The notes under the pieces: model-generated
What the model was told of the DNA's origin: nothing
Database searches by the model: none
The model's input: only the letters and a program-made list of their open reading frames with translations
Part shown: positions 2,332 to 26,634 of the stretch, one piece after another
Layout of the letters: each line of letters starts with the position of its first letter
Numbering within the stretch: the first letter of the stretch is position 1
Position numbers and translations under genes: made by a program
DNA from: a virus
IMG/VR virus record: IMGVR_UViG_3300001472_000045
Span: 3,439-30,072 of that record
Direction: 5' to 3' (one strand)
Length of the DNA: 26,634 nucleotides

Positions 2332-3117
2332 ATGGCCGTTAATCACTTTTTTCAAAACGGAAACGGTATTGGGAATAAAAACGAAGCAAAACTACACGAA
2401 GACTTAATCATAGAAGGCCTAAAAATATTTGGCCATGATGTTTATTACCTACCGAGAACACTAGTTAACCAAGACCTAATATTAGGTGAAGATAGTTTAT
2501 CTAAATTTGATGACTCTTATCTGATAGAAATGTATGTTGAAACTACAGAGGGTTTAGCTGGCGAACAAGAATTAATCAGTAAGTTTGGTTTAGAGATAAG
2601 AGAAGAAACAACTTTTATGTTATCTAAGCGTAGATGGAATGACGCAGTAGATAGTTACCATACTATGATTAAAGAGGGTAGACCAAATGAGGGTGATATA
2701 ATTTATTACCCATTGATGAATAAGTTTTTTGAAATTAGTTTTGTAGAAGACCAAGAGCCATTCTTTCAATTAGGCAATTTACCGGTTTACAAACTAAGAG
2801 CAAGAACATGGGAGTACAGTTCAGAAAGATTAGATACTGGCGTTACAGATATTGATAGTGCTGAAGACCAATACTCTATTGATATGTTGGCTCACCAATT
2901 TCAACTTGAAGATGGTACAGGTTCTTTACAATTAGAAAACGATAGTGTAAGTGGTGACGCAAATTACTTTATCAATGAAGATTACGCTTTACAGACACAA
3001 TCAACTTATGCTGATAATTTAGATTTAGACGCACAAGCAGGTTTCAATACAGCAGATACTTCAGATGATATACTTGACTTTACAGAAAGAAACCCATTTG
3101 GTGAGGTAGACAATTAA
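2332..3117 (+). CDS. gp14: Neck protein gp14
   Basis: A 261-residue protein, close to T4 gp14 (about 256). Its N-terminal half contains EDLIIEGLKIFGHDVYYLPR and a block ending FMLSKRRWNDAV, both typical of gp14 in T4-like phages. The C-terminus is acidic. gp14 acts with gp13 as head completion/neck protein at the head-tail joint. The last base of the stop codon is the first base of the gene 15 ATG (TAATG at 3115-3119), implying translational coupling. The 13-14-15 order is the T4 order. It is probably transcribed late with its neighbours. Confidence 0.88.
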   Translation: MAVNHFFQNGNGIGNKNEAKLHEDLIIEGLKIFGHDVYYLPRTLVNQDLILGEDSLSKFDDSYLIEMYVETTEGLAGEQELISKFGLEIREETTFMLSKRRWNDAVDSYHTMIKEGRPNEGDIIYYPLMNKFFEISFVEDQEPFFQLGNLPVYKLRARTWEYSSERLDTGVTDIDSAEDQYSIDMLAHQFQLEDGTGSLQLENDSVSGDANYFINEDYALQTQSTYADNLDLDAQAGFNTADTSDDILDFTERNPFGEVDN

Positions 3118-3914
3118 TGTTTGGATATTTTTACAACGAAAGTATGAGAAAAATGACCGTAGCTTTTGGTCAGATTTTTAATAACATACAAATAAAAAGG
3201 AGAGATAGTGCAGGTGCAATAGTGCAATCTATTCGTGTGCCATTAGCATATGCTCCTAAAGAAAAGTTTTTAGTAAGACTAGACCAACAGGCTAGTTTAG
3301 ATGATAGAGAAATGGCAATCACACTACCTAGAATGGGGTTTGAGATTGCTGAAATTGCATATGATGGTAGTAGAAAACTAACTAAAGTGCAAAAATTTAA
3401 ATCAGTTAAAACTGGTGCAGACGGCAAGGTTATGAATTATAACTATATGCCTGTGCCTTATAATATATCATATAATTTATTTTGTTTGACAGCAACTGCC
3501 GAAGGTGGTTTACAAATTATAGAACAAATATTACCGTATTTTCAACCTGATTATACTGTTACTGTTAATGTTATTCCAGAAATGGGTATCAAAAGAGATA
3601 TTCCTATTGTACTAAATAATATTAATTACGAAGATAGTTATTCAGGAGATTTTACAACAAGAAGAGCAGTTATCTATACATTAAACTTTACAGCAAAGAC
3701 ATATCTGTATGGTCCTGCTTCAACGCAAAAAGTAATTAAGGAAACTCAGTCTGATTTACATACTGATTTACCGGCTGCTAGTAGAGAAGAAAGAATCGTG
3801 GTTGTACCTAATCCAACAAGTGCTGACGCAGATGATGATTTCGGATTTACAACAACCATAACAAGTTTTGCAGATGGTAAGAATTATGATAAAACAAGAG
3901 ATGAGGATGTATAA
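3117..3914 (+). CDS. gp15: Tail sheath stabiliser / tail completion protein gp15
   Basis: A 265-residue protein (T4 gp15 is about 272). It starts MFGYFYNESMRKMTVAFGQIF and carries IQIKRRD, the N-terminal signature of gp15. In T4, a gp15 hexamer caps the completed tail, stabilises the sheath and docks onto gp13/gp14. The start overlaps the gene 14 stop by one base. The stop codon lies inside a late-promoter box (3910-3917) that serves the next gene. In T4, gene 16 follows directly; here about 5 kb of adhesin and enzyme genes separate them. Confidence 0.87.
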   Translation: MFGYFYNESMRKMTVAFGQIFNNIQIKRRDSAGAIVQSIRVPLAYAPKEKFLVRLDQQASLDDREMAITLPRMGFEIAEIAYDGSRKLTKVQKFKSVKTGADGKVMNYNYMPVPYNISYNLFCLTATAEGGLQIIEQILPYFQPDYTVTVNVIPEMGIKRDIPIVLNNINYEDSYSGDFTTRRAVIYTLNFTAKTYLYGPASTQKVIKETQSDLHTDLPAASREERIVVVPNPTSADADDDFGFTTTITSFADGKNYDKTRDEDV

Positions 3915-3940: not shown

Positions 3941-5344
3941 ATGCCAATAAGTAAAGTAGGTTCAAAAGGAATTAAAGACGCCGAATTGTCGGCAGCTGAT
4001 ATAGCGCCAGGTACAATTACAAGTGCAAAAATAGCAGCAGGCACAATTGCAGCTGATAGGCTTGCAGGTGGTATAACAAATACTCAATTAGCAGGTTCTA
4101 TTGCAACCTCTAAATTAGCAGGTTCAATTACAAATGCTAAATTATCAAACTCATCAATTACTGTAAACGGTACAGCTATTGCCTTAGGCGCTAGTGGTGA
4201 TATCGTTGCAGGTTTAGATTGGCAAGCAGTTAAAACAGCAAATTTTACAGCAGTTTCAGGAGAAGGATATTTCGTAAATACTGCTGGCGGTGCTATAACA
4301 GTTACATTACCAGCTTCACCTAGTAGAGGTGATTTTGTAGGTGTAGTTGACTATGGAAGTGCCGGTACAAACAATATTACAATTGCTCGTAACGGTTCAA
4401 ACTTTAATGGAGCGGCCGCTGATAGAGTAACAACACAGACAAGAGCAGCTGAGGTTTATGTATATTCAGACGCAACTTTGGGGTGGACAGTTCAATCCAC
4501 ATCTATCGAACCAGCTGCATTTGTAGAAGCAACAGGCGGAACAACAGCTAATTCAGGCGATTACAAAATTCATACATTCAATTCATCTGGAAACTTTGTT
4601 GTTGCAAGTATAGGAAATCAAAGCGCAATAGTTGATTACTTAGTTGTTGCCGGCGGTGGCGGAGGCGGTGAAGGCGGCGGCGGTGCCGGAGGTTATAGAG
4701 AATCAAATGGCCTAACTGTGGCAGGGAACAGTCCTTTAGCAAATCCAACTGGTATTACAATACAAGCTCAAACATATCCTATTACAGTAGGTGCTGGCGG
4801 AGGTGGTCAAGCACACGCTAGTGGCGGATTAAAAGGTGCCAATTCAATATTTTCTACTATCACATCAACAGGTGGTGGTGGCGGAGGTCCTGCTCCAAAC
4901 CCTAGAGTTTTAGGTGGTTCAGGTGGCGGTAGAGAACCAGGAGTTCCTGTCAGTTGCCAAAGTGGTAATCATCCACCAGTTTCTCCACCTCAAGGACAAC
5001 CTGGCGGCGTACAAGGTAACAATAGTAATCCAGGCAGACACGGCGGTGGCGGTGGTGCTCTCGAAGCCGGATGTACTGACGGTTCATCACACGGTGGTGA
5101 CGGTGCAGCTTCTTCAATTTCAGGTTCAGCAGTCACTAGAGCTGGCGGCGGTGGCGGTGGTTATAGTACCGGTGGTGCTCCACTAGGTACTGCTCCAGGA
5201 GGAGATGGCGGCGGAGGTAATGGTTCAACAACAAACGGTACAGCAGCTCCAGGTTCTAATTTAGGCGGCGGCGGTGGCGGAGGTTGGAACAATGGTGCCA
5301 ACGGAAGTTCAGGTGTCGTAATACTAAGATACAAAAGACAGTAA
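3941..5344 (+). CDS. Glycine-rich adhesin-like tail fibre protein
   Basis: A 467-residue protein in three parts. Residues about 18-72 are repeats of roughly ten residues (AGxIxxxKLAGSIT type). Residues about 90-185 form a beta-rich segment (GEGYFVNTAGGAITVTLP, SRGDFVGVVDYG, NNITIARNGS) found in many marine phage fibre proteins. From about 208 (HTFNSSGNF ... YLVVAGGGG) a glycine-rich domain runs to the C-terminal SGVVILRYKRQ, with at least seven Gly tracts and a Pro-rich interruption near 333-365. Glycine-rich domains of this kind occur in receptor-binding adhesins, for example gp38 of T2- and S16-like phages, where Gly tracts form packed polyglycine helices (established). Here a receptor-binding role is inferred. 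The gene has its own late promoter and is followed by a stem-loop. The Gly tracts are locally GC-rich, with many GGC codons. Confidence 0.72.
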   Translation: MPISKVGSKGIKDAELSAADIAPGTITSAKIAAGTIAADRLAGGITNTQLAGSIATSKLAGSITNAKLSNSSITVNGTAIALGASGDIVAGLDWQAVKTANFTAVSGEGYFVNTAGGAITVTLPASPSRGDFVGVVDYGSAGTNNITIARNGSNFNGAAADRVTTQTRAAEVYVYSDATLGWTVQSTSIEPAAFVEATGGTTANSGDYKIHTFNSSGNFVVASIGNQSAIVDYLVVAGGGGGGEGGGGAGGYRESNGLTVAGNSPLANPTGITIQAQTYPITVGAGGGGQAHASGGLKGANSIFSTITSTGGGGGGPAPNPRVLGGSGGGREPGVPVSCQSGNHPPVSPPQGQPGGVQGNNSNPGRHGGGGGALEAGCTDGSSHGGDGAASSISGSAVTRAGGGGGGYSTGGAPLGTAPGGDGGGGNGSTTNGTAAPGSNLGGGGGGGWNNGANGSSGVVILRYKRQ

Positions 5345-5393: not shown

Positions 5394-6830
5394 ATGAATA
5401 AATTATGTATAGTTGGTGGTGGAACAGCAGGTCTCATAACTGCTTTAATACTAAAGAGAAGATTTTCCTCACTTAAAATAGACATTGTAAAGTCGGATAA
5501 AATCGGTATCATTGGTGTCGGCGAAGGCACTACTGAACATTGGGCAGACTTTATGCTTCATATCGGTATTACCGAAGAAGAGCTAATCAGAGAAACTGGT
5601 GCTACTATGAAAGGTGGTATTATGTTTAAAGATTGGACAAAACATGACTATTATCACAATACTTACGGCTCTTACGCATACACAAAATTTGCTCATTATC
5701 TAGGTGGATATGCTTATGCTGTATCTAATAATTTAAAATCAAAAGAATACACCGACCCACACGCATGGAACAATTTAGTAACACCTTCAGACCCGACAAA
5801 ACAATATCATTTTAACACTTTTAAATTAAATGAATTTTTGTTAAAAAAATGTAAAAGTTTTGATATTAATATTTACAATGATGATATAACAAAAGTTAAT
5901 ATTAAAAAGGGCAATATAGAAAGTATAGAAAGTAAAAAGAAAAAATACAAGTATGATTTTTATATTGATAGTACAGGTTTTAAAAGATTACTTATATCAA
6001 AATTAGGTGCAAAGTGGCAATCATATAAAGAATATTTGCCAATGAATGAGGCTATTGCTTTTCCTACAAAAGATACAGACGAATATACACCATATACAAC
6101 AGCTAAAGCAATGTCAGCAGGTTGGATGTGGCGAATACCAACAAATGGCCGTTGGGGTAATGGTTATGTTTATAATAATAAATTTATAAATGCTGAACAA
6201 GCTAAGATAGAATGTGAAAAGTATCTAGGTCATAAAATAGAAATAGGCAAGAATATAAAATTTGAGGCAGGTGCTATTGACAGACCTTGGATAGGTAATT
6301 GTGTTGCAACAGGATTAAGTTCCAGTTTTATTGAACCATTAGAAGCTTCTTCAATAGGCACTTCTATACAACAAGCTTATATATTAATGCACATATTAAT
6401 TAATTACTCTGAAAAAGATATACAACTTTACAATAAGAGGTTTAAATCAATTGTAGAAAATATTAGAGATTTTGTTTTATTACATTATATGACAGGTAAA
6501 AAAGATAGCAAATTTTGGAAACAATACAAACCAAATCTACCTTTATCTCTTAAAGAGAATTTAAAAACATGGCATAAAAGATTGCCTATGAAAGAAGACT
6601 TTGATGGTGAGTACATTTTATTTAAACCTGAAAACTTTTCTGTAGTATTAAAAGAGTTAAACTTATTTGATAAAAAGTCTATAAAAAAAGAATTTAATAG
6701 TTTATCGCAATCATATAAAGATTGTGTTTATGAGCAAGTTGACAGACAAAAATCATGGAATAATAATGTAGAAACCGTAAGTCATAAAAAGTATCTACAA
6801 AAAGTATGCTCTGGAAGGTTGCCTAAATAA
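5394..6830 (+). CDS. Flavin-dependent tryptophan-halogenase-like protein
   Basis: A 478-residue protein of the tryptophan halogenase family (PrnA/RebH-like, PF04820). The FAD-binding GGGTAG is at residues 8-13 and a second flavin-site motif GVGEGT at 41-46. Lys73 (TMKGGIMFKDW) sits where the catalytic lysine of PrnA lies. The family signature WxWxIP is WMWRIP at 244-249, and SSSFIEPLEASS (309-320) carries the conserved Glu region. These enzymes use reduced FAD, O2 and halide to halogenate indoles, and need a separate flavin reductase; none is visible here. All main motifs are intact, so it is probably an active flavoenzyme, but its substrate is unknown and need not be free tryptophan. Halogenase-like genes are known in marine T4-like phages. 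It leads a run of three oxygenases, starting 38 bases downstream. Confidence 0.82.
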   Translation: MNKLCIVGGGTAGLITALILKRRFSSLKIDIVKSDKIGIIGVGEGTTEHWADFMLHIGITEEELIRETGATMKGGIMFKDWTKHDYYHNTYGSYAYTKFAHYLGGYAYAVSNNLKSKEYTDPHAWNNLVTPSDPTKQYHFNTFKLNEFLLKKCKSFDINIYNDDITKVNIKKGNIESIESKKKKYKYDFYIDSTGFKRLLISKLGAKWQSYKEYLPMNEAIAFPTKDTDEYTPYTTAKAMSAGWMWRIPTNGRWGNGYVYNNKFINAEQAKIECEKYLGHKIEIGKNIKFEAGAIDRPWIGNCVATGLSSSFIEPLEASSIGTSIQQAYILMHILINYSEKDIQLYNKRFKSIVENIRDFVLLHYMTGKKDSKFWKQYKPNLPLSLKENLKTWHKRLPMKEDFDGEYILFKPENFSVVLKELNLFDKKSIKKEFNSLSQSYKDCVYEQVDRQKSWNNNVETVSHKKYLQKVCSGRLPK

Positions 6831-6868
6831 TTATATGAGTATATATAAATGATGATGAGGAACAAAGA

Positions 6869-7546
6869 ATGAATTTAGAAAATTATTACTATTACTTTCA
6901 ATCAGTATTACCACCTAAACTTGTTGATGATATATTAGCTTATGGCAAACAACATGAAATGGGAATGGCTGTAACAGGTGGTTCAGATGATAAAAAAAAT
7001 CTTGACGGTAAAGGTAAATTAAAAAAGTCTGTTGTCAAAGACATTCAAAAGAAGCGTAAATCAGATGTTGTGTGGATGGATGATACATGGATTTACAAAG
7101 AAATACACCCATACTTACAAGAAGCAAATCAAAAGGCCGGTTGGAATTTTGAGTGGGACTTTTCTGAGTCTTGTCAATTTACCAAATACGGTGTTGGTGA
7201 TTATTATGGTTGGCATACTGATAGTTGGAACAAACCATACATGAGGCCTCCATTAGAAGATGGTACACGACCAAGAGACCACGGTAAAATTAGAAAATTA
7301 TCAATGACTATTTCACTTTCACATCCTGAAGAATACGAGGGTGGTAACTTTGAAGTGGATTTAAGAAACAGTACAGACTATGATAATGCACATCAAAGAA
7401 AAAATAGTAAAAGATTAGTAACAGAAATTAGACCTCGTGGTTCAATTATTATATTTCCAAGTTTTGTATGGCATAGAGTCACACCAGTAACAAAAGGTAC
7501 TAGACACTCATTAGTAGTTTGGAGTTTAGGTCGTCCATTTAAATAG
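6869..7546 (+). CDS. 2OG-Fe(II) oxygenase, PKHD / prolyl-4-hydroxylase type
   Basis: A 225-residue protein with a complete double-stranded beta-helix dioxygenase motif set. The iron ligands are H116-x-D118 (YYGWHTDSW) and H202 (FPSFVWHRV), and R212 (TKGTRHSL) binds 2-oxoglutarate ten residues later. IRKLSMTISL and EYEGGNFEV are typical of the P4Hc/PKHD branch. Such enzymes hydroxylate prolyl or other side chains, or small molecules, using O2 and 2-oxoglutarate; the substrate here is unknown. A clear paralogue lies at 22111-22665, with the same WHxD, IRKLS and VTKGTR blocks. It is the first of three consecutive oxygenases after the halogenase. A purine-rich GATGAGGAAC lies just before the ATG. 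Confidence 0.85.
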   Translation: MNLENYYYYFQSVLPPKLVDDILAYGKQHEMGMAVTGGSDDKKNLDGKGKLKKSVVKDIQKKRKSDVVWMDDTWIYKEIHPYLQEANQKAGWNFEWDFSESCQFTKYGVGDYYGWHTDSWNKPYMRPPLEDGTRPRDHGKIRKLSMTISLSHPEEYEGGNFEVDLRNSTDYDNAHQRKNSKRLVTEIRPRGSIIIFPSFVWHRVTPVTKGTRHSLVVWSLGRPFK

Positions 7547-7558
7547 AGAAAGTATATT

Positions 7559-8197
7559 ATGAGTAATGAAGCAATAGTAAATCATCATTTTCAAACACCA
7601 GTATGGTTGTTCGAAAAATCAGAGTGGGTAAATGAAGTAAATAAAGTATGTGACAAATATATTAAAGAAGCTTATAAAAGAGATAAGAAAGGTAAAAATG
7701 ATTTTGGTCATTCTTATCATTCAAGACCTTTACACAGCGACCCTAAACTAAAAGAATTGCATGATTGGGTTGGCGCAACAGCTATAAACTTTTTAGATAG
7801 TATGGGATATAATATGGAAAATCATTCAATGTTCTATACTGAATCATGGGTACAAGAATTTTCAAAAAGAGGTGGAGGTCATCATAATTCTCATGTTCAC
7901 GGTAATAATCATGTATCGGCATTTTATTATTTGAAATGTACAGAAAATACATCAAGGCCAACTTTTCACGACCCTAGAACAGGCGCTCAAATGATGAAGC
8001 TTCCAGAAAAAGACAGTAAACAAATTTCTATGGCAAATGACAAGGTAAATTATATACCTAAACCTGGCACATTAATTTTTATACCTGCTTATTTAGCTCA
8101 CGAATATGGACTAGATGACGGTAAAGAAGATTTTAGATTTATACATTTTAACTTACAGGCTGTGAGTAAAGTTATATTAGAAGGAGAAAAAAAATGA
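7559..8197 (+). CDS. Putative 2OG-Fe(II) oxygenase (2OG-FeII_Oxy_5-like)
   Basis: A 212-residue protein starting with AIVNHHFQTPVW, an N-terminus typical of the putative oxygenase group TIGR02466/PF13759. The likely iron site is HHNSHVHGNNH (108-118) followed by SAFYYLKCT, with a distal His at 181 (PAYLAHEYG) and R193 about twelve residues on (DFRFIHFNL). The first ligand pair reads HxH rather than HxD, so the iron site, or the activity, may differ from classical enzymes. The substrate is unknown. It ends in a 4-base ATGA overlap with the next gene (8194-8197), so the two are probably made together. The truncated gene at the window end looks like the same subfamily. Confidence 0.72.
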   Translation: MSNEAIVNHHFQTPVWLFEKSEWVNEVNKVCDKYIKEAYKRDKKGKNDFGHSYHSRPLHSDPKLKELHDWVGATAINFLDSMGYNMENHSMFYTESWVQEFSKRGGGHHNSHVHGNNHVSAFYYLKCTENTSRPTFHDPRTGAQMMKLPEKDSKQISMANDKVNYIPKPGTLIFIPAYLAHEYGLDDGKEDFRFIHFNLQAVSKVILEGEKK

Positions 8198-8877
8198 CAC
8201 CTGCATTTAAGAAAAACAACTACATGGTAATTAAGAAAGCAATCGACCCAAAGATTGCTGAATTTGCTATGAATTATTTATTAATGAAAAGACAAATCGC
8301 AAGAACAATGTTTGACGAAAGATTTATTTCGCCATTTACGACAGAGTGGGGAGTTTGGAATGATAAACAAGCGCCAGAAACATATTCTCATTATGCCGAT
8401 ACAGTAATGGAAACTATGTTATTAAAAGTATTGCCTATAATGGAAAAAGAAACAGGATTAAAATTAATTCCTACTTATTCTTATACTCGTATCTATAAAA
8501 ATGGTGATATACTAAAAAGACATAAAGATAGATTTAGTTGTGAGATTTCTACTACAATGAATTTAGGTGGCGATAAATGGCCAATCTATATTGAACCTAA
8601 TCCTAAAAAAGGTAAAGATACAGATAACGGATATGAATCAGAATATACGGATGGGGTTAAAGTAGATTTAAAACCTGGAGATATGTTAGTTTATAAAGGA
8701 AACATTTGTGAACATTGGAGAGATAAATTTACAGGTACAGATTGTGCTCAAGTATTTTTACATTATAACAATGCAGCTACAAAAGGTTCTAAAAAGAATA
8801 TGTTTGATGGCAGACCACATATAGGTTTACCGTCTTGGTGGCAAGGTAAAGTTGACCACAGTAATACGGATTTCTAA
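8194..8877 (+). CDS. Putative 2OG-Fe(II) oxygenase
   Basis: A 227-residue protein. The likely facial triad is H110-x-D112 (LKRHKDRFSCEIS) with H174 (NICEHWRDKF) after the strand GDMLVYKG. The candidate for 2-oxoglutarate binding is less clear (a basic residue after H174). SYTRIYKNGDILKRH is characteristic of this phage and marine oxygenase group. The substrate is unknown. It overlaps the preceding oxygenase by four bases and is followed by small terminase 16 after eight bases, so it is embedded in the late structural/packaging operon. An AGGAG ribosome binding site (8180-8184) lies before its ATG, inside the upstream gene. Confidence 0.72.
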   Translation: MTPAFKKNNYMVIKKAIDPKIAEFAMNYLLMKRQIARTMFDERFISPFTTEWGVWNDKQAPETYSHYADTVMETMLLKVLPIMEKETGLKLIPTYSYTRIYKNGDILKRHKDRFSCEISTTMNLGGDKWPIYIEPNPKKGKDTDNGYESEYTDGVKVDLKPGDMLVYKGNICEHWRDKFTGTDCAQVFLHYNNAATKGSKKNMFDGRPHIGLPSWWQGKVDHSNTDF

Positions 8878-8885
8878 ATATTAAT

Positions 8886-9359
8886 ATGGCTATCGAAGAC
8901 AAAGTAAACGAAATTTTAGGACTAGAACCTGCTAAATCTCCTATGGAACAATTACATAAGGAAGAGGAGTTTAAAGCTCCGGTTGTTAGAACGGAAGAAA
9001 AAGAAACAGATGTCGATAATGACCATAAGAATAGTAGAGAACACTATTACAATCTTATAGAAAAAGGTCAAGAAGCTATTGAGGGTATTTTAAATGTTGC
9101 AAAAGAGGGTCAACACCCTAGAGCATATGAAGTTGCATTAGCTGGTATTAAGAATGTTGCAGATACGGTAGATAAGTTACAAGACTTAAATAAAAAATTA
9201 AAAGACTTAAAAGAATTACCAAAAACTGCCAATGCAAATATTAAAAACGCATTGTTTGTAGGGTCAACAGCAGAGTTGCAAAAAATGTTAAGAAAAGATG
9301 ATGAAATTATTGAAAGCAAAACAATCACACCCGAAGAAACAGATATTTCAGATAAGTAA
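8886..9359 (+). CDS. gp16: Small terminase subunit gp16
   Basis: A 157-residue protein, close to T4 gp16 (164). The middle, SREHYYNLIEKGQEAIEGIL, then GQHPRAYEVALAGIKNVADT, matches the conserved helical core of T4-like small terminases. Charged tails lie on both sides and LKDLKELPK is in the connecting helix. gp16 oligomers regulate the packaging motor gp17 and help recognise DNA for packaging. Unusually, gene 17 does not follow directly: a ParB-like ORF (overlapping the 3' end of 16) and an oxygenase intervene. It is probably late transcribed from the upstream unit. Confidence 0.85.
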   Translation: MAIEDKVNEILGLEPAKSPMEQLHKEEEFKAPVVRTEEKETDVDNDHKNSREHYYNLIEKGQEAIEGILNVAKEGQHPRAYEVALAGIKNVADTVDKLQDLNKKLKDLKELPKTANANIKNALFVGSTAELQKMLRKDDEIIESKTITPEETDISDK

Positions 9360-9549
9360 ACTTGGTTATGTCAAAAACGGCATAATGTTACAAGACATAC
9401 TTGATGGTAATGAAATGTTAGATTGTGTTGAAATAGAACACGACACAAATCCTAATTACGATAAAGAGTATTTTGTTTATAAAGGTAGTAGTCGTATTGA
9501 GGCGGCTGTTAAAATGGGTTACACACACATTGAGGGTTTTATAATATGA
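9298..9549 (+). CDS. Small ParB/sulfiredoxin-like protein between terminase genes
   Basis: An 83-residue protein. The C-terminal half, EYFVYKGSSRIEAAVKMGYTHIEGFII, resembles the G-x-R-R-x-x-A-x-x-x-x-G core of ParB/Srx-type nucleotide-binding folds, with GSSR in place of GxRR. Without the rest of a ParB protein, partition or nuclease activity cannot be claimed. The start is uncertain: ATG 9298 or 9301 would overlap gene 16 by about 60 bases, whereas the conserved-looking part starts near LGYVKNGIM, so a later start (ATG 9385) is possible. The 3' end overlaps the next oxygenase by four bases (ATGA at 9546-9549), which argues that it is translated. Confidence 0.6.
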   Translation: MMKLLKAKQSHPKKQIFQISKLGYVKNGIMLQDILDGNEMLDCVEIEHDTNPNYDKEYFVYKGSSRIEAAVKMGYTHIEGFII

Positions 9550-10136
9550 AAGAATACGAATTAGATAATATTACTCTAATGGGTGGTTGGTTTATACCAA
9601 AAAAAGTTTGTGACGACTTAAAAAAGTTTATGGATAAACAACCGTTAGTAGATGGTATGATGTATTCTACCAGAGGCAGCCAAGAAGTCGTAAAAGATTT
9701 AAAAGAATCAAAAGAGATTGCTGTTGATTTTTTTAATGAAAATGAGCCTTTTCATACATATAAAGTACACTTAGGTAATGTATTACAAAAGTATATTAAA
9801 AAGTATTCTCATATTGAATCTAATACACCATTTGCTTTGAGAGAAAAATATAATTTACAAAAATATCCTGTGGGTGGTGGTTTTAAAATATGGCATTTTG
9901 AAAATGATTTTAGTAGTAATTTAAATTGGCATAGAGGTTTAGTTTTTATGACATATTTAAATGATGTTGAAGATGGTGGTACAGAATTTTTATATCAAAA
10001 CTTAACAATACCAGCAAAAAAAGGATTAACATTAATTTGGCCTGCTTTCTTTACACATACACATAAAGGTCAAGTTAGTAAAACAAAAGAGAAATATATA
10101 GCTACAGGATGGTTTAATCATATAAACCTAATATAA
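9546..10136 (+). CDS. 2OG-Fe(II) oxygenase inserted between genes 16 and 17
   Basis: A 196-residue protein of the P4H-like 2OG oxygenase superfamily. RGLVFMTYLNDVEDGGTEF is a classic core block. The likely iron ligands are H117-x-E119 (IWHFEND) and H173 (FFTHTHKGQ), and K183 ten residues later (KEKYIATGWF) replaces the usual Arg as 2OG anchor. HxE with Lys is a known variation in parts of this superfamily. The substrate is unknown. It overlaps the ParB-like ORF by four bases and is followed by gene 17 after four bases, so it is translationally embedded in the packaging module. A family match to marine phage oxygenases is likely. Confidence 0.8.
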   Translation: MKEYELDNITLMGGWFIPKKVCDDLKKFMDKQPLVDGMMYSTRGSQEVVKDLKESKEIAVDFFNENEPFHTYKVHLGNVLQKYIKKYSHIESNTPFALREKYNLQKYPVGGGFKIWHFENDFSSNLNWHRGLVFMTYLNDVEDGGTEFLYQNLTIPAKKGLTLIWPAFFTHTHKGQVSKTKEKYIATGWFNHINLI

Positions 10137-11890: not shown

Positions 11891-13831
11891 ATGGCATTTC
11901 AAGTATCACCAGGTGTTCTCGTACAGGAAAGAGACCTAACTAGTATCATTCCTGCTGTTTCAACTTCTATCGGTGCAGTTGCTGGTCAATTCACAAAAGG
12001 ACCGTTAGACGAAATAGTAAGTATCTCTAGTGAGCAAGATTTAGTAGAAACTTTTGGTAAACCTGATGTAAATAATTTCGAGTATTTTTTCAGCGCAGCC
12101 AACTTTTTACAATATTCTAACACTCTTAGAGTAGTACGAGCAAACCAATCATCACAAGTGAATGCTTCAACATCTGGAACAGGTGTTTTAGTAAAGAATA
12201 CGGACGATTGGACAAATAACTATGCTTCAGGTGGCGCAGCCGGTAACGCAACATTTGTTGCTAGAGAAGCAGGAGCATATGGTAACACATTGCTTGTTGC
12301 AACTTGTCCGAACGCAGCCGCTTACGAATCAACAACAACAACAGCTCAACAAGTTAACCAAGCTGACTTAGCAGTCGGCGACACAACTGTAGCAATGGAC
12401 TCAAATGCAACAGCTTACTTAAATGTAGGTGATGTAATTCAGTTTTCAACTACAGCTGCAGGAACAGACTTTGATGATGGAGAAAAATATAGATTGACTG
12501 CTGTTGCTTCAACTTCAATAACACTCGTTCAGCACCCTAGAGGTACTGGCGGATTAAAAAGAGTTGTAGTCGACAATGCAAGAATCAAAAGAAGATGGCG
12601 TTATTATGACGCTGTTGACGGTGCTCCAGGAACATCTACTTGGACCTCAGACAGAAGCGGTGCGAATGACGAAATTCATGTCGTAGTCGTTGATGAAGAC
12701 GGTTCAATAGCAGGCGTTCCAGGTCAAATCTTAGAAACTTACAACAAAGTATCTAAAGCTTCAGACGCAAAAACTCCGCAAGGAGATGATAACTATTACG
12801 CAAATGTTATCTACACCAAATCAAGATATCTTTGGTGGACAAAACATCATGCTTCAGGTTCAAACTGGGGTAATGCAGCTTCTGGAACAACATTTACAGC
12901 GGTAAATGTACCAACAAGTGAATCACTTTCAGGTGGTTCTGACGGTTCTGCCGTTACAACTGGTCAACTAAAAACAGCTTACGATAAGTTTGCTGATAGT
13001 GAAACAGTTGATGTTGGTCTTATCATTGCTGGTAAATGTGACGCAACTCATGTAGAAAACTTAATCACAATCGCAGAAGCGAGAAAAGACTGTGTTGTCT
13101 TTGCTTCTCCTGAAAGAAGTGATGTAGTTAATGTAACTAATACAAATACGCAAAAAGATAATGTAATTGACTTTTATAGTACAATTTCATCTTCTTCATA
13201 TGTTGTATTCGATAGTGGTTACAAATATATGTACGACAGATACAATGATGTTTACAGATATGTACCATTAAACGGTGACATGGCAGGACTAACAGCTAGA
13301 ACTGACCTTATTGCAGACAGTTGGTTTTCACCAGCAGGTTTCAATAGAGGTGTAGTTAGAGGCGCTGTTAAACTTGCATTTAATCCTACAAAAACACAAA
13401 GAGATGAGTTATATCCGAAAAGAATTAATCCAGTAGCTACCTTCCCAGGTCAAGGTACTGTATTATTTGGAGATAAAACTGGTCTTGCAAGTCCAAGTGC
13501 TTTTGATAGAATAAATGTTAGAAGACTGTTCATCACTTTAGAGAAGGCAATCTCTACTGCTTCTAAATTCCAACTCTTTGAATTCAATGATGAGTTTACA
13601 AGAGCTAACTTTAGAAACATTGTAGAACCTTTTTTGAGAGAAGTACAAGGTAGACGAGGTATCACAGACTTTTTAGTAGTGTGTGATGAAACTAACAATA
13701 CAGGACAAGTAATAGACAGAAATGAATTCATTGCTGAAATTTTCATTAAACCAGCAAGAAGCATTAACTTTATTACATTGTCTTTCGTAGCAACAAGAAC
13801 CGGCGTTTCGTTTGACGAAGTAGCAGGTTAG
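11891..13831 (+). CDS. gp18: Contractile tail sheath protein gp18
   Basis: A 646-residue protein (T4 gp18 is 659). The N-terminus MAFQVSPGVLVQERDLTSII and then FTKGPLDEIVSI are typical of myovirus sheath proteins. The C-terminal region (SAFDRINVRRLFITLEKAI, EPFLREVQGRRGI, GQVIDRNEFIAEIFIKPA) is the strongly conserved core that interlocks subunits. It forms the contractile sheath around the gp19 tube. The AAAGGAG ribosome binding site is among the strongest in the window, as expected for an abundant protein. The insertion-like middle part (about residues 90-330) is the variable, surface-exposed section in this family. Gene 19 follows after 17 bases. Confidence 0.95.
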   Translation: MAFQVSPGVLVQERDLTSIIPAVSTSIGAVAGQFTKGPLDEIVSISSEQDLVETFGKPDVNNFEYFFSAANFLQYSNTLRVVRANQSSQVNASTSGTGVLVKNTDDWTNNYASGGAAGNATFVAREAGAYGNTLLVATCPNAAAYESTTTTAQQVNQADLAVGDTTVAMDSNATAYLNVGDVIQFSTTAAGTDFDDGEKYRLTAVASTSITLVQHPRGTGGLKRVVVDNARIKRRWRYYDAVDGAPGTSTWTSDRSGANDEIHVVVVDEDGSIAGVPGQILETYNKVSKASDAKTPQGDDNYYANVIYTKSRYLWWTKHHASGSNWGNAASGTTFTAVNVPTSESLSGGSDGSAVTTGQLKTAYDKFADSETVDVGLIIAGKCDATHVENLITIAEARKDCVVFASPERSDVVNVTNTNTQKDNVIDFYSTISSSSYVVFDSGYKYMYDRYNDVYRYVPLNGDMAGLTARTDLIADSWFSPAGFNRGVVRGAVKLAFNPTKTQRDELYPKRINPVATFPGQGTVLFGDKTGLASPSAFDRINVRRLFITLEKAISTASKFQLFEFNDEFTRANFRNIVEPFLREVQGRRGITDFLVVCDETNNTGQVIDRNEFIAEIFIKPARSINFITLSFVATRTGVSFDEVAG

Positions 13832-21682: not shown

Positions 21683-22111
21683 ATGGATTTAGAAAAACTA
21701 CAAGAAATGGCCGACAAAGACTTGGCCATTAATGAAACTGAATTAGATTTAGAATCCCTTAAAACACCACAACTACACAACAAGTATATGAAACACTATA
21801 CTAAGTTTAAGTTGATGTTGACTAAAGCGGAAACGGATTATAAACAGTTAAAAAGACACAAATGGGAATATTATACAGGCAAATCAGACGCACAGGTCTA
21901 TGCCGAAAAACCATTTGATTTAAAAATACTAAGAACAGATGTTGACAAATACATTGAATCGGATGATGATTTAATTAGAGGTAAACAAAAAATTGAATAC
22001 CTGTCAGCTTGTGTTGATTACTTAGATAGAACAATCAGACAAATATCAAATAGAACATTTACTATAAAGAACGCTATTGACTGGCGAAGATTTACTAGTG
22101 GTGCTGTGTAA
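21683..22111 (+). CDS. uvsY: Recombination mediator UvsY
   Basis: A 142-residue protein (T4 UvsY is 137). LNxTELDLESLKTPQLHNKYM-type N-terminus, YKQLKRHKWEYYTGK in the middle and IRQISNRTFTIKNAIDWRRF at the C-terminus match the family. UvsY displaces gp32 and loads the UvsX recombinase on single-stranded DNA in recombination-dependent replication. It is the first gene after the sigma70-like promoter. Its stop overlaps the next ATG by one base (TAATG at 22109-22113). In T4, uvsW lies near uvsY; here an oxygenase separates the two. Confidence 0.93.
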   Translation: MDLEKLQEMADKDLAINETELDLESLKTPQLHNKYMKHYTKFKLMLTKAETDYKQLKRHKWEYYTGKSDAQVYAEKPFDLKILRTDVDKYIESDDDLIRGKQKIEYLSACVDYLDRTIRQISNRTFTIKNAIDWRRFTSGAV

Positions 22112-22665
22112 TGTTTTTAGAAAATATTTATCATATAAAAACCGGTATTGTACCTTTAGATTTTTGTAATAGTATTATTGCAGAGGGAATGTCATCTAAT
22201 ATGACAAAATCAAAAATACAAGATGGTAATAAAGATAATAGAAGCTCTAGTGTAGGTTGGTTAGATAATAAAAAATTACAAACATCTCTAAGTAATCTTA
22301 TTCAATTGGCTAATGACGAAAGTAATTGGAACTTTTCTTTAAAAGAATTTGAACCTCTACAGTATTCAGAATATAATAAAGGTGACCATTATGATTGGCA
22401 TATTGATAGTCATAGAAAACCATATGATAATGGTATGATTAGAAAGTTAAGTTTTACTTTATGTTTAAATGATGATTATGAGGGTGGTGATTTTAGAATA
22501 AGTCAACCACATCCTAATTCAGACAAAGTGGTTGTTGAATCTTTTAAACCTAAAACAGGAACTATGATTGTATTTCCTAGTCACATATGGCATAAAGTAG
22601 GTGAAGTTACAAAAGGTACTAGAAAATCTTTAGTAGGTTGGGTTGTAGGAAAACAATGGCAGTAG
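22111..22665 (+). CDS. 2OG-Fe(II) oxygenase, PKHD type, between uvsY and uvsW
   Basis: A 184-residue protein with a complete motif set: H97-x-D99 (YDWHIDSH), H161 (FPSHIWHKV), and R171 (TKGTRKSL) ten residues on. IRKLSFTLCL and DYEGGDFRI are as in the P4Hc/PKHD branch. It is a clear paralogue of the 6869-7546 gene but lacks that protein's longer loops; both genes even share the 15-base string ACAAAAGGTACTAGA. The substrate is unknown. It overlaps uvsY by one base and uvsW by ten, so it is translated within the early recombination operon, at a different time from its late paralogue. Confidence 0.85.
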   Translation: MFLENIYHIKTGIVPLDFCNSIIAEGMSSNMTKSKIQDGNKDNRSSSVGWLDNKKLQTSLSNLIQLANDESNWNFSLKEFEPLQYSEYNKGDHYDWHIDSHRKPYDNGMIRKLSFTLCLNDDYEGGDFRISQPHPNSDKVVVESFKPKTGTMIVFPSHIWHKVGEVTKGTRKSLVGWVVGKQWQ

Positions 22666-25294: not shown

Positions 25295-26321
25295 CACACA
25301 TTTCGGATGTCGTAATGATTCACCTGCCTTTATAGAATACCAAAACAAGTTTTACAATGATATATTCTTTCCTTATTTAAAAGAACATAACATTGGAACA
25401 TTGGTACATCTAGGTGATGTTGTTGACAGACGAAAGTTTATAAACCATAACACAGCTCATAACTTTAAAAAAGTTTTTTGGGATAAGTTAGATGAGATGA
25501 TTATAGATACACATATAATCATTGGTAACCATGATACTTATTATAAAAATACAAATGAAGTAAATGCTTTACAAAACCTCAACATTAGCAAAAACGCTAA
25601 AATCTATACTAGAGCGGACACCGTTAATATTGGTGGGCTTGATATACTTTTCTTGCCTTGGATTTGTGATGATAATTTGGATGATAGCATTCACGCTATC
25701 GACAATACTACTTCAACCATTGCTATGGGTCACCTTGAAATTAAAGGCTTTGAAATGCACAAAGGCGTTTACAATGACCATGGCCAAGAAAAATCACAAT
25801 TCACAAAATTCGAAAAAGTAATATCTGGTCATTTTCACAAGAAATCAGATGATGGTCGTATCTTCTATCTAGGTACACAATATGAAATAACATGGTCAGA
25901 CTATCAATGTCCTAAAGGATTTCATATTTTTGATACTGAAACAAGAGAACTAGAAAGAGTTATTAATCCTTATCGTATGTATAAAAAGATATACTATAAT
26001 GATAAAGAACAAGACTATTCTAATTACGACTTATCAGATTTTGATAATACCTATGTCAAACTGTTTATAACAAACAAGACAGATGAAGATATGTATAATA
26101 ATCTGGTTGAAAGAATTTACAACACAATCAATGTACACGAATTACAAATTATAGAAGACCCTATTGATGTGGCCTCTACAGTAAGAAGTGATATATTAGA
26201 ACAAGGCGAAGATACGCAAACATTTTTAAATAACTATATTGACCAGGCTGATACTGGTGAACTAGATAAAACAAAACTAAAACAGTTTGCAAGAGAACTG
26301 TATGGTGAGGCAAATGAATAG
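25272..26321 (+). CDS. gp47: Recombination nuclease subunit gp47 (Mre11-like)
   Basis: A 349-residue protein from ATG 25272 (T4 gp47 is 339); the longer open frame starting TTG 25197 reads through the end of gene 55 and is rejected because MKIALLNDTHFG is the canonical N-terminus. Calcineurin-like metallophosphoesterase motifs: D8-x-H10 (NDTHFG), GDVVDRR (48-54), GNHDT (85-89), GH (153-154) and GHFH (186-189). All metal ligands are present. With gp46 (Rad50-like, expected downstream) it resects DNA ends for recombination-dependent replication. It overlaps the next gene by eight bases. Confidence 0.94.
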   Translation: MKIALLNDTHFGCRNDSPAFIEYQNKFYNDIFFPYLKEHNIGTLVHLGDVVDRRKFINHNTAHNFKKVFWDKLDEMIIDTHIIIGNHDTYYKNTNEVNALQNLNISKNAKIYTRADTVNIGGLDILFLPWICDDNLDDSIHAIDNTTSTIAMGHLEIKGFEMHKGVYNDHGQEKSQFTKFEKVISGHFHKKSDDGRIFYLGTQYEITWSDYQCPKGFHIFDTETRELERVINPYRMYKKIYYNDKEQDYSNYDLSDFDNTYVKLFITNKTDEDMYNNLVERIYNTINVHELQIIEDPIDVASTVRSDILEQGEDTQTFLNNYIDQADTGELDKTKLKQFARELYGEANE

Positions 26322-26634
26322 AACAGTAGAATATGGTAATATACCTTTCGGTCCCTATGTTATGAGAACAAAAATACCTGAAGATATGAGAAAAAGATTA
26401 TTAACAGACGGAAAAAAACAATTAAAAAGTTATCATAAAAGATTAGCTGGCCATTTAGACTCACAACTAAAATACAATGATGAAACTACAGGTTGGTTTT
26501 ACCAGGAATCAAACTTTATCTGGCAGGCGTATAGAGAAGGCTGGTCAAATTTTACAGGACTTCCAAATGAGGGTGTAGAACTAAATGCTCACGACTTATG
26601 GGTAAACTTTATGAAACCTGGTGACTTCAATCCT
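26314..26634 (+). CDS. Putative 2OG-Fe(II) oxygenase, 3' end outside window
   Basis: An open frame of 107 codons running off the window end. It starts at ATG 26314, eight bases inside gene 47. The first part is VEYGNIPFGPYVMRTKIPED, then a helical stretch KRLLTDGKKQLKSYHKRLAGH. The visible end HDLWVNFMKPGDFNP is the strand that, in the PF13759/TIGR02466 oxygenase group, directly precedes the iron-binding His pair. The metal site itself lies beyond the window. It is probably related to the 7559-8197 gene. The expected gene 46 is displaced by this insertion, as oxygenases displace neighbours elsewhere in the window. Confidence 0.65.
   Translation, partial: MNRTVEYGNIPFGPYVMRTKIPEDMRKRLLTDGKKQLKSYHKRLAGHLDSQLKYNDETTGWFYQESNFIWQAYREGWSNFTGLPNEGVELNAHDLWVNFMKPGDFNP

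Follow-up and report, generated by a model that had tools for sequence, protein, structure and literature searches.

Immediately downstream of a glycine-rich tail adhesin gene in the DNA of a marine phage lies a cassette of four enzyme genes, which is proposed to modify this adhesin post-translationally, a reading to which we assign a probability of about one half. The DNA is a 26,634-nucleotide stretch of virus record IMGVR_UViG_3300001472_000045 in IMG/VR (positions 3439–30072 of 39,320 bases; hereafter the window) and belongs to a T4-like phage near Pelagibacter phage HTVC008M (identity of 63% for gp17, 60% for gp20 and 70% for gp23). The cassette encodes a flavin-dependent halogenase-like protein and three oxygenases of the 2-oxoglutarate (2OG)-Fe(II) type, denoted ox1, ox2 and ox3. 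From the gene identities, the conserved catalytic residues, purifying selection, the co-location of enzymes and adhesin across virus types and a link between a proline-rich adhesin loop and ox1/ox3, we infer the adhesin as the probable substrate, the residues in it that may change, and a possible effect on binding.

An earlier note on this DNA had placed the four genes at 5394–8877 as accessory genes inserted between gp15 and gp16. These coordinates proved exact, and the open reading frames (ORFs) are real; all start with ATG on the + strand and are spaced by 38, 12 and −4 bases. Between gp15 and gp16, the genes for adhesin, halogenase, ox1, ox2 and ox3 are packed in this order on one strand, with the four-gene block 49 bases downstream of the adhesin and 8 bases upstream of gp16. 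The insertion was likewise borne out; the block falls inside the gp15–gp18 interval (gp15-like gene at 3117–3914, gp16 at 8886 and gp18-like gene at 11891, by HTVC008M gene matches), a hypervariable region already described for cyanomyoviruses (PMC2984593). The ratio of non-synonymous to synonymous substitution rates (dN/dS) of the four genes was 0.10–0.28 against near relatives (L008, L010/L011 and L112), indicating that they are kept as functioning proteins.

Co-occurrence of the enzymes was evaluated at 108 halogenase loci in viral contigs, obtained from two scans, of which the second gave the best 80 of 581, and at the best 80 of 598 ox3 loci. Eighty loci of the oxygenase type found between uvsY and uvsW (ox5 in the window), centred by match coordinates, were used as a control. 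Genes were called with local profiles, and the locus counts treat loci as independent. A 2OG gene was located within 3 kb of the halogenase at 85 of the 108 loci versus 5 of the 80 control loci (Fisher p = 4e-25, uncorrected for relatedness), so that the enzymes co-occur better than chance and the refuting outcome set by the earlier note did not occur. At the 71 halogenase loci left after near-duplicate removal, the 2OG share of surrounding genes was 0.37 in the bin adjoining the halogenase, followed by 0.25, 0.16, 0.08 and 0.03, the last bin covering 7.5–10.5 kb, and the adjoining 2OG genes were on the same strand in 61/72 cases. Shuffling of labels inside loci gave a signal only mildly over chance (adjacent 2OG in 27/39; shuffled mean 20.6, maximum 28), because the loci themselves are dense in 2OG genes. 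Chance clustering was ruled out by the control loci, the distance bins and random placement of genes.

Within 3 kb of ox3, ox1 was present at 66 and ox2 at 65 of the 80 loci, while a halogenase was found at 6. The core unit is therefore ox1-ox2-ox3, with the halogenase as an optional add-on; the joint tailoring set suggested earlier stands in that the enzymes travel together, but its core is the trio. The locus type of the window itself occurs both with a halogenase (L004–L011) and without one (L112, L128, L137 and L144). The trio appears in the same order beside tail or structural genes in the podovirus-type Pelagibacter phages HTVC023P and HTVC033P and in 023Pt_psg01, and related genes lie downstream of a fibre gene in Synechococcus phage S-SM1. 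Thirty-six whole records were also chosen (20 phage records and 16 longer contigs). In these, ox3 and halogenase lay within 5 kb of each other in 7 of the 12 records having both (expected 2.8); for phage records alone the proximity was not significant (2/7, expected 0.5, a value reached by 1719 of 20,000 placements). At other loci (L083, L104, L109, L078, L070 and L090), four or five halogenase genes stand amid several 2OG oxygenases, L083, L104 and L109 each carrying five of the former and five or six of the latter; three tandem glycine-rich adhesins adjoin the arrays of L083 and L109.

The recurring partner of these enzymes is the glycine-rich adhesin, residues 90–186 of which match tailspike protein 7rfv (4.9e-8) in the window. 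When a glycine-rich ORF was defined as having at least 25% glycine over 100 residues, one was located within 3 kb of ox3 at 48/80 loci and at 0/80 loci of the control oxygenase. Six such genes tested beside the arrays proved to be one family (phrog_2295 in 6/6; PF21722 in 5/6, with one below the cut-off). Among the 36 records, 29 contained a halogenase, 22 a PF21722 gene over the family cut-off and 16 both, after exclusion of five PF21722 rows under the cut-off. The halogenase and the PF21722 gene were within 3 kb in 12 of these 16 (expected 3.3), and none of 20,000 random placements reached 12. In 8 of the 11 phage records with both, the two genes were 471–710 bases apart (expected 0.76 records within 3 kb); the exceptions were HTVC008M (8.1 kb), S-SSM7 (6.9 kb) and P-SSM2 (65 kb). 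The eight close cases are cyanophages throughout, and they may share one ancestor. The context thus lies in the structural region, as the earlier note had it, but the recurring partner is a tail adhesin, not virion assembly generally.

One of the eight close cases is Syn10, where the second of two halogenases is VirX1 (530-residue match to 6qgm), which lies downstream of two glycine-rich fibre genes and upstream of PF13759 oxygenases. Inside this array are two genes with no Pfam match (L286:8063-8851, phrog_7084, and L286:9690-10481, phrog_1644), which are possible further tailoring enzymes. Tandem glycine-rich adhesins followed by small genes (phrog_7759 in L166) and then by the oxygenase trio were seen in L272–L274, L166 and L140.

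The adhesins near ox1/ox3 are richer in proline than the others (0.067 vs 0.032 for 49 and 119 adhesins), also with the loop described below removed (0.061 vs 0.031). Those near halogenases are richer in histidine and tryptophan overall in an exploratory comparison. Their histidine share is about three times higher than that of other glycine-rich adhesins, the cause of which may be lineage. The excess of tryptophan and tyrosine near halogenases fails within trio loci, and there was no aromatic excess in residues following poly-glycine runs.

A loop of the form GNxPPx[ST]PxQG, hereafter the PP loop, recurs in these otherwise variable adhesins and reads GNHPPVSPPQG in the window (N = residue 343). 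A DNA scan of viral contigs for the loop alone listed 80 loci, 45 of which had at least 2.5 kb of downstream sequence; a 2OG gene was present downstream on the same strand in 43, ox1 in 40 and ox3 in 39. At the other two of these 45 loci (L317 and L333), ox1 and ox3 were present once strand was ignored. A sample taken independently of the loop, by a PF21722 signature scan (56 loci with 2.5 kb downstream), contained ox1 in 18/18 loci with the PP loop versus 9/38 others (p = 2e-8). This strict form of the loop was chosen after the data had been seen; therefore, a prediction was written down and fresh loci were taken with another signature, on which ox1 was found in 9/9 PP-loop loci, as predicted. 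When only the loci newly added by the two signature scans were counted, without near-duplicates, ox1 or ox3 accompanied 10/10 PP-loop adhesins versus 12/55 others (p = 3.6e-6). In a genome collection, the exact loop was found in three stretches on two contigs of metagenome-assembled genomes, all with short downstream sequence.

The two oxygenases linked to the loop resemble protein (prolyl) hydroxylases, and prolyl hydroxylation is predicted from the profile of ox1 and the fold of ox3. In ox1, H116-x-D118, H202 and R212, corresponding to the iron triad and the 2OG-binding arginine, are invariant in 32/32 homologues, and the profile matches PKHD hydroxylase PiuC (3e-7). In ox3, H110-x-D112 and H174 are invariant in 69 rows, whose conserved arginines are R99 and R176; no conserved arginine or lysine was found in these rows about 10 residues past the distal histidine (usually +9/+10), and the co-substrate of ox3 is therefore predicted from its fold. 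The pattern H-x-D...H...R, noted earlier for two oxygenases, hence holds fully for ox1, but in ox3 the arginine is at H+2. The ox3 model was of high confidence (predicted local distance difference test, pLDDT, 96.1; predicted template-modelling score, pTM, 0.91), and its best folds were Dictyostelium PHD (1.6e-8) and Pseudomonas putida prolyl-4-hydroxylase (2.3e-8), with template-modelling (TM) scores of 0.45–0.53 by query length. The family of ox3, phrog_2954, is called 'ferrochelatase' in PHROGs and in phage records. This candidate was rejected, as ox3 had no match in Pfam or NCBIfam and no ferrochelatase was among the 50 best folds listed; together with the prolyl-hydroxylase-like fold, this leaves the label of phrog_2954 unsupported, and it looks wrong in general.

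The remaining oxygenase, ox2, has H112-x-H114 and H181 invariant in 31/31 homologues and departs from the H-x-D/E...H triad. The H-x-H variant pointed out in the earlier note is therefore a rule of the family, and the reading of ox2 as a dead or damaged enzyme was rejected. Its model (pLDDT 85.8) resembles the uncharacterised 3bvc and 2rg4 as well as many 2OG enzymes; ox2 is an oxygenase by profile and fold, with putative use of 2OG. Genes labelled 'DNA endonuclease V' (phrog_274; L279:2178-2657 and several cyanophage genes) also recur within these arrays; judged by eye, they may be small 2OG oxygenases.

The halogenase is a member of the PF04820 flavin-dependent family (313 bits against a cut-off of 21), and its activity is predicted from sequence. 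The GxGxxG motif of the flavin adenine dinucleotide (FAD) site (G8/G10/G13), K73, WxWxIP (W244/W246/I248/P249) and EPLE (E317) are invariant in 18/18 homologues, in agreement with the intact FAD site, lysine and WxWxIP read earlier; the lysine and the glutamate presumably have catalytic roles. The nearest solved structure is a tryptophan 5-halogenase in PDB (7.4e-55), with VirX1 weaker (2.3e-35).

These features suggest the following scheme. The adhesin would be made in the host cytoplasm, where ox1 and ox3 would hydroxylate prolines of the GNHPPVSPPQG loop and other proline-rich stretches, and ox2 may oxidise a further residue. The optional halogenase, supplied with reduced flavin by the host and halide from sea water, might halogenate exposed aromatic or histidine side chains. 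The outcome would be a receptor-binding tip with changed surface chemistry. Hydroxylation by ox1/ox3 is likely and better supported than halogenation of the adhesin, which is more speculative.

Several results weigh against modification of the adhesin by this cassette. A looser motif gave a weak link (ox1 at 19/32 vs 8/24 loci, p = 0.064). The predicted absence of the enzymes from fresh loci lacking the PP loop failed (ox1 at 4/5), and the loop was accordingly rejected as a necessary condition. On a tree of the glycine-rich domains, eight supported independent pairs differing in the trio gave 3.2 agreeing in the loop and 0.3 disagreeing, which points in the expected direction but is not significant, and an earlier analysis of the tree, whose labels were poorer, revealed no trend; for proline content, the figures were 1.4 vs 0.5. 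Shared descent may therefore explain much of the loop–enzyme association. The rarity of halogenases near ox3 leaves the share of the halogenase in a joint function uncertain; of the 29 records with a halogenase, 13 lack a PF21722 gene that passes the cut-off, and the window's own locus shows no enrichment in aromatic residues or histidine.

The main rival, which we regard as somewhat doubtful, is that cargo and adhesin genes both turn over in a hypervariable site behind the tail genes and hitch-hike there with no joint function. It is consistent with the non-significant pairs on the tree, with the known insertion site at g15–g18 (PMC2984593) and with the occurrence of both Fe(II) oxygenases and tail fibres among the genes of variable islands (PMC3909814), where the oxygenases were classed under host recognition. 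However, the trio and the adhesin recur in podovirus-type phages and in many contigs that lack gp15/gp16, the order ox1-ox2-ox3 is often retained, the 2OG genes next to halogenases are mostly co-stranded as given above, and the loop of the adhesin predicts ox1.

It is unlikely that the enzymes act on small molecules of the host, such as free amino acids, 2OG or nitrogen metabolites, or a signal or defence metabolite. For cyanophages, adjustment of the host's 2OG levels by 2OG enzymes has been suggested (PMC3037559), a halogenase was proposed as protection from antibiotics (PMC2984593), and VirX1 accepts many aromatics in vitro (PMC8407142). Such targets, however, leave the bond with the PF21722 adhesin and the PP loop unexplained, and the cassette has no obvious gene for a transporter or a carrier. 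The local alignment of the halogenase with PrnA ends at query residue 404 (chain 439), short of the C-terminal part of PrnA, and gives no clear support for a free-tryptophan site. For the tailoring suggested in the earlier note, the adhesin protein is better supported than a metabolite as the substrate. Modification or repair of DNA or nucleosides by the oxygenases is very improbable: the interval from uvsY to uvsW does harbour some phage 2OG genes, ox5 of the window among them, and a DNA-repair function has been proposed for such genes (PMC9146016), but the ox5-type loci have no glycine-rich neighbours and a halogenase near only 1/80, ox1/ox3 resemble protein hydroxylases, and a halogenase fits DNA modification poorly.

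The gene families involved are known; what would be new is their action on the tail tip of a phage. VirX1, the flavin-dependent iodinating halogenase of Syn10 (PDB 6qgm), has PF04820, upstream glycine-rich fibre genes and downstream 2OG genes in common with the window, but it has 530 residues versus 478 for the window protein, which scores better against bacterial tryptophan 5-halogenases and whose activity is predicted. Bacterial operons of peptide-modifying dioxygenases with PF04820 members were reportedly described by Iyer et al. in 2010, with protein or peptide substrates proposed, an account that our literature search did not find. Pairs of a 2OG oxygenase and a 'ferrochelatase' in HTVC023P-type pelagiphages are of the same families, and their adjacency is already reported (PMC9599517); they were read there as linked to iron or heme, whereas here ox3 is predicted to fold as an oxygenase and is accompanied by an adhesin and, at some loci, a halogenase. 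The prolyl 4-hydroxylase of Chlorella virus PBCV-1 was proposed to act on prolines of viral proteins (Eriksson 1999, via PMC9301287), but, as described in that source, it is a single enzyme of a eukaryotic virus with collagen-like substrates and no halogenase. The same source remarks that a viral prolyl hydroxylase may relate to tail-fibre collagen, and phage 2OG oxygenases have been found structurally like a human prolyl hydroxylase (PMC12774648). The hyperplastic region g15–g18 of cyanomyoviruses (Millard 2009, via PMC2984593) is the same insertion site, but the cargo listed for it is photosynthesis-linked and carbon metabolism genes, and the source text describes a region and assigns no function. 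Halogenases were counted in 20/153 cyanophages (PMC10452541), and seasonal viruses are enriched in 2OG oxygenases and 'ferrochelatases', given as phrog61 and phrog2954 (PMC11561400). In the open-licence library searched, no paper joining the halogenase, the oxygenase trio and the glycine-rich adhesin was found, which agrees with the earlier view that a joint function is undescribed; part of the apparent novelty is nevertheless known, since the insertion site and the pairing of 2OG oxygenase with 'ferrochelatase' are in print.

The features of the window are collected in Table 1, where ox4, ox5 and the oxygenase gene at the window end are additions to the set given in the earlier note. A small ORF at 9298–9549 overlaps the end of gp16; it has no family match and is kept between gp16 and ox4 in relatives.

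Table 1. Features of the window, with the matches or observations behind each assignment.
Feature	Position	Strand	Basis
Glycine-rich tail adhesin, proposed substrate	3941..5344	+	PF21722 Gly_rich_2 1.1e-13; phrog_2295 3e-44
Proline-rich loop NHPPVSPPQG, adhesin residues 343-352, candidate modification site	4967..4996	+	motif conservation, link to ox1/ox3
Flavin-dependent halogenase-like protein, 478 aa	5394..6830	+	PF04820 4e-93; phrog_2928 1.3e-105
ox1, PKHD/prolyl-hydroxylase-like 2OG-Fe(II) oxygenase	6869..7546	+	PF13640 1e-13
ox2, PF13759-type oxygenase with H-x-H...H	7559..8197	+	PF13759 7.4e-14; TIGR02466 at cut-off
ox3, phrog_2954 oxygenase, database label 'ferrochelatase'	8194..8877	+	phrog_2954 3.1e-48
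gp16 small terminase (context)	8886..9359	+	phrog_445 2.9e-43
ox4, oxygenase between gp16 and gp17, absent from the earlier note	9546..10136	+	PF13640 6.3e-8
ox5, oxygenase between uvsY and uvsW, control gene	22111..22665	+	PF13640 1.3e-17
Start of a further PF13759 oxygenase leaving the window end	26287..26634	+	PF13759 1.7e-14 on continued ORF in L279

Phage 2OG oxygenases and halogenases have so far mostly been tallied as host-metabolism genes with no known substrate. More tentatively than for the window itself, it is possible that several marine virus types share a modular, exchangeable hydroxylase/halogenase system that modifies glycine- and proline-rich tail tips, so that host recognition would run on non-coded chemistry, with such a tip as the natural substrate of VirX1. 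If this is true, the host range of ocean phages would be set partly by chemistry that is invisible in the genome sequence, there would be an explanation for what VirX1 does in nature, and the widely used 'ferrochelatase' label of marine viromes would be wrong.

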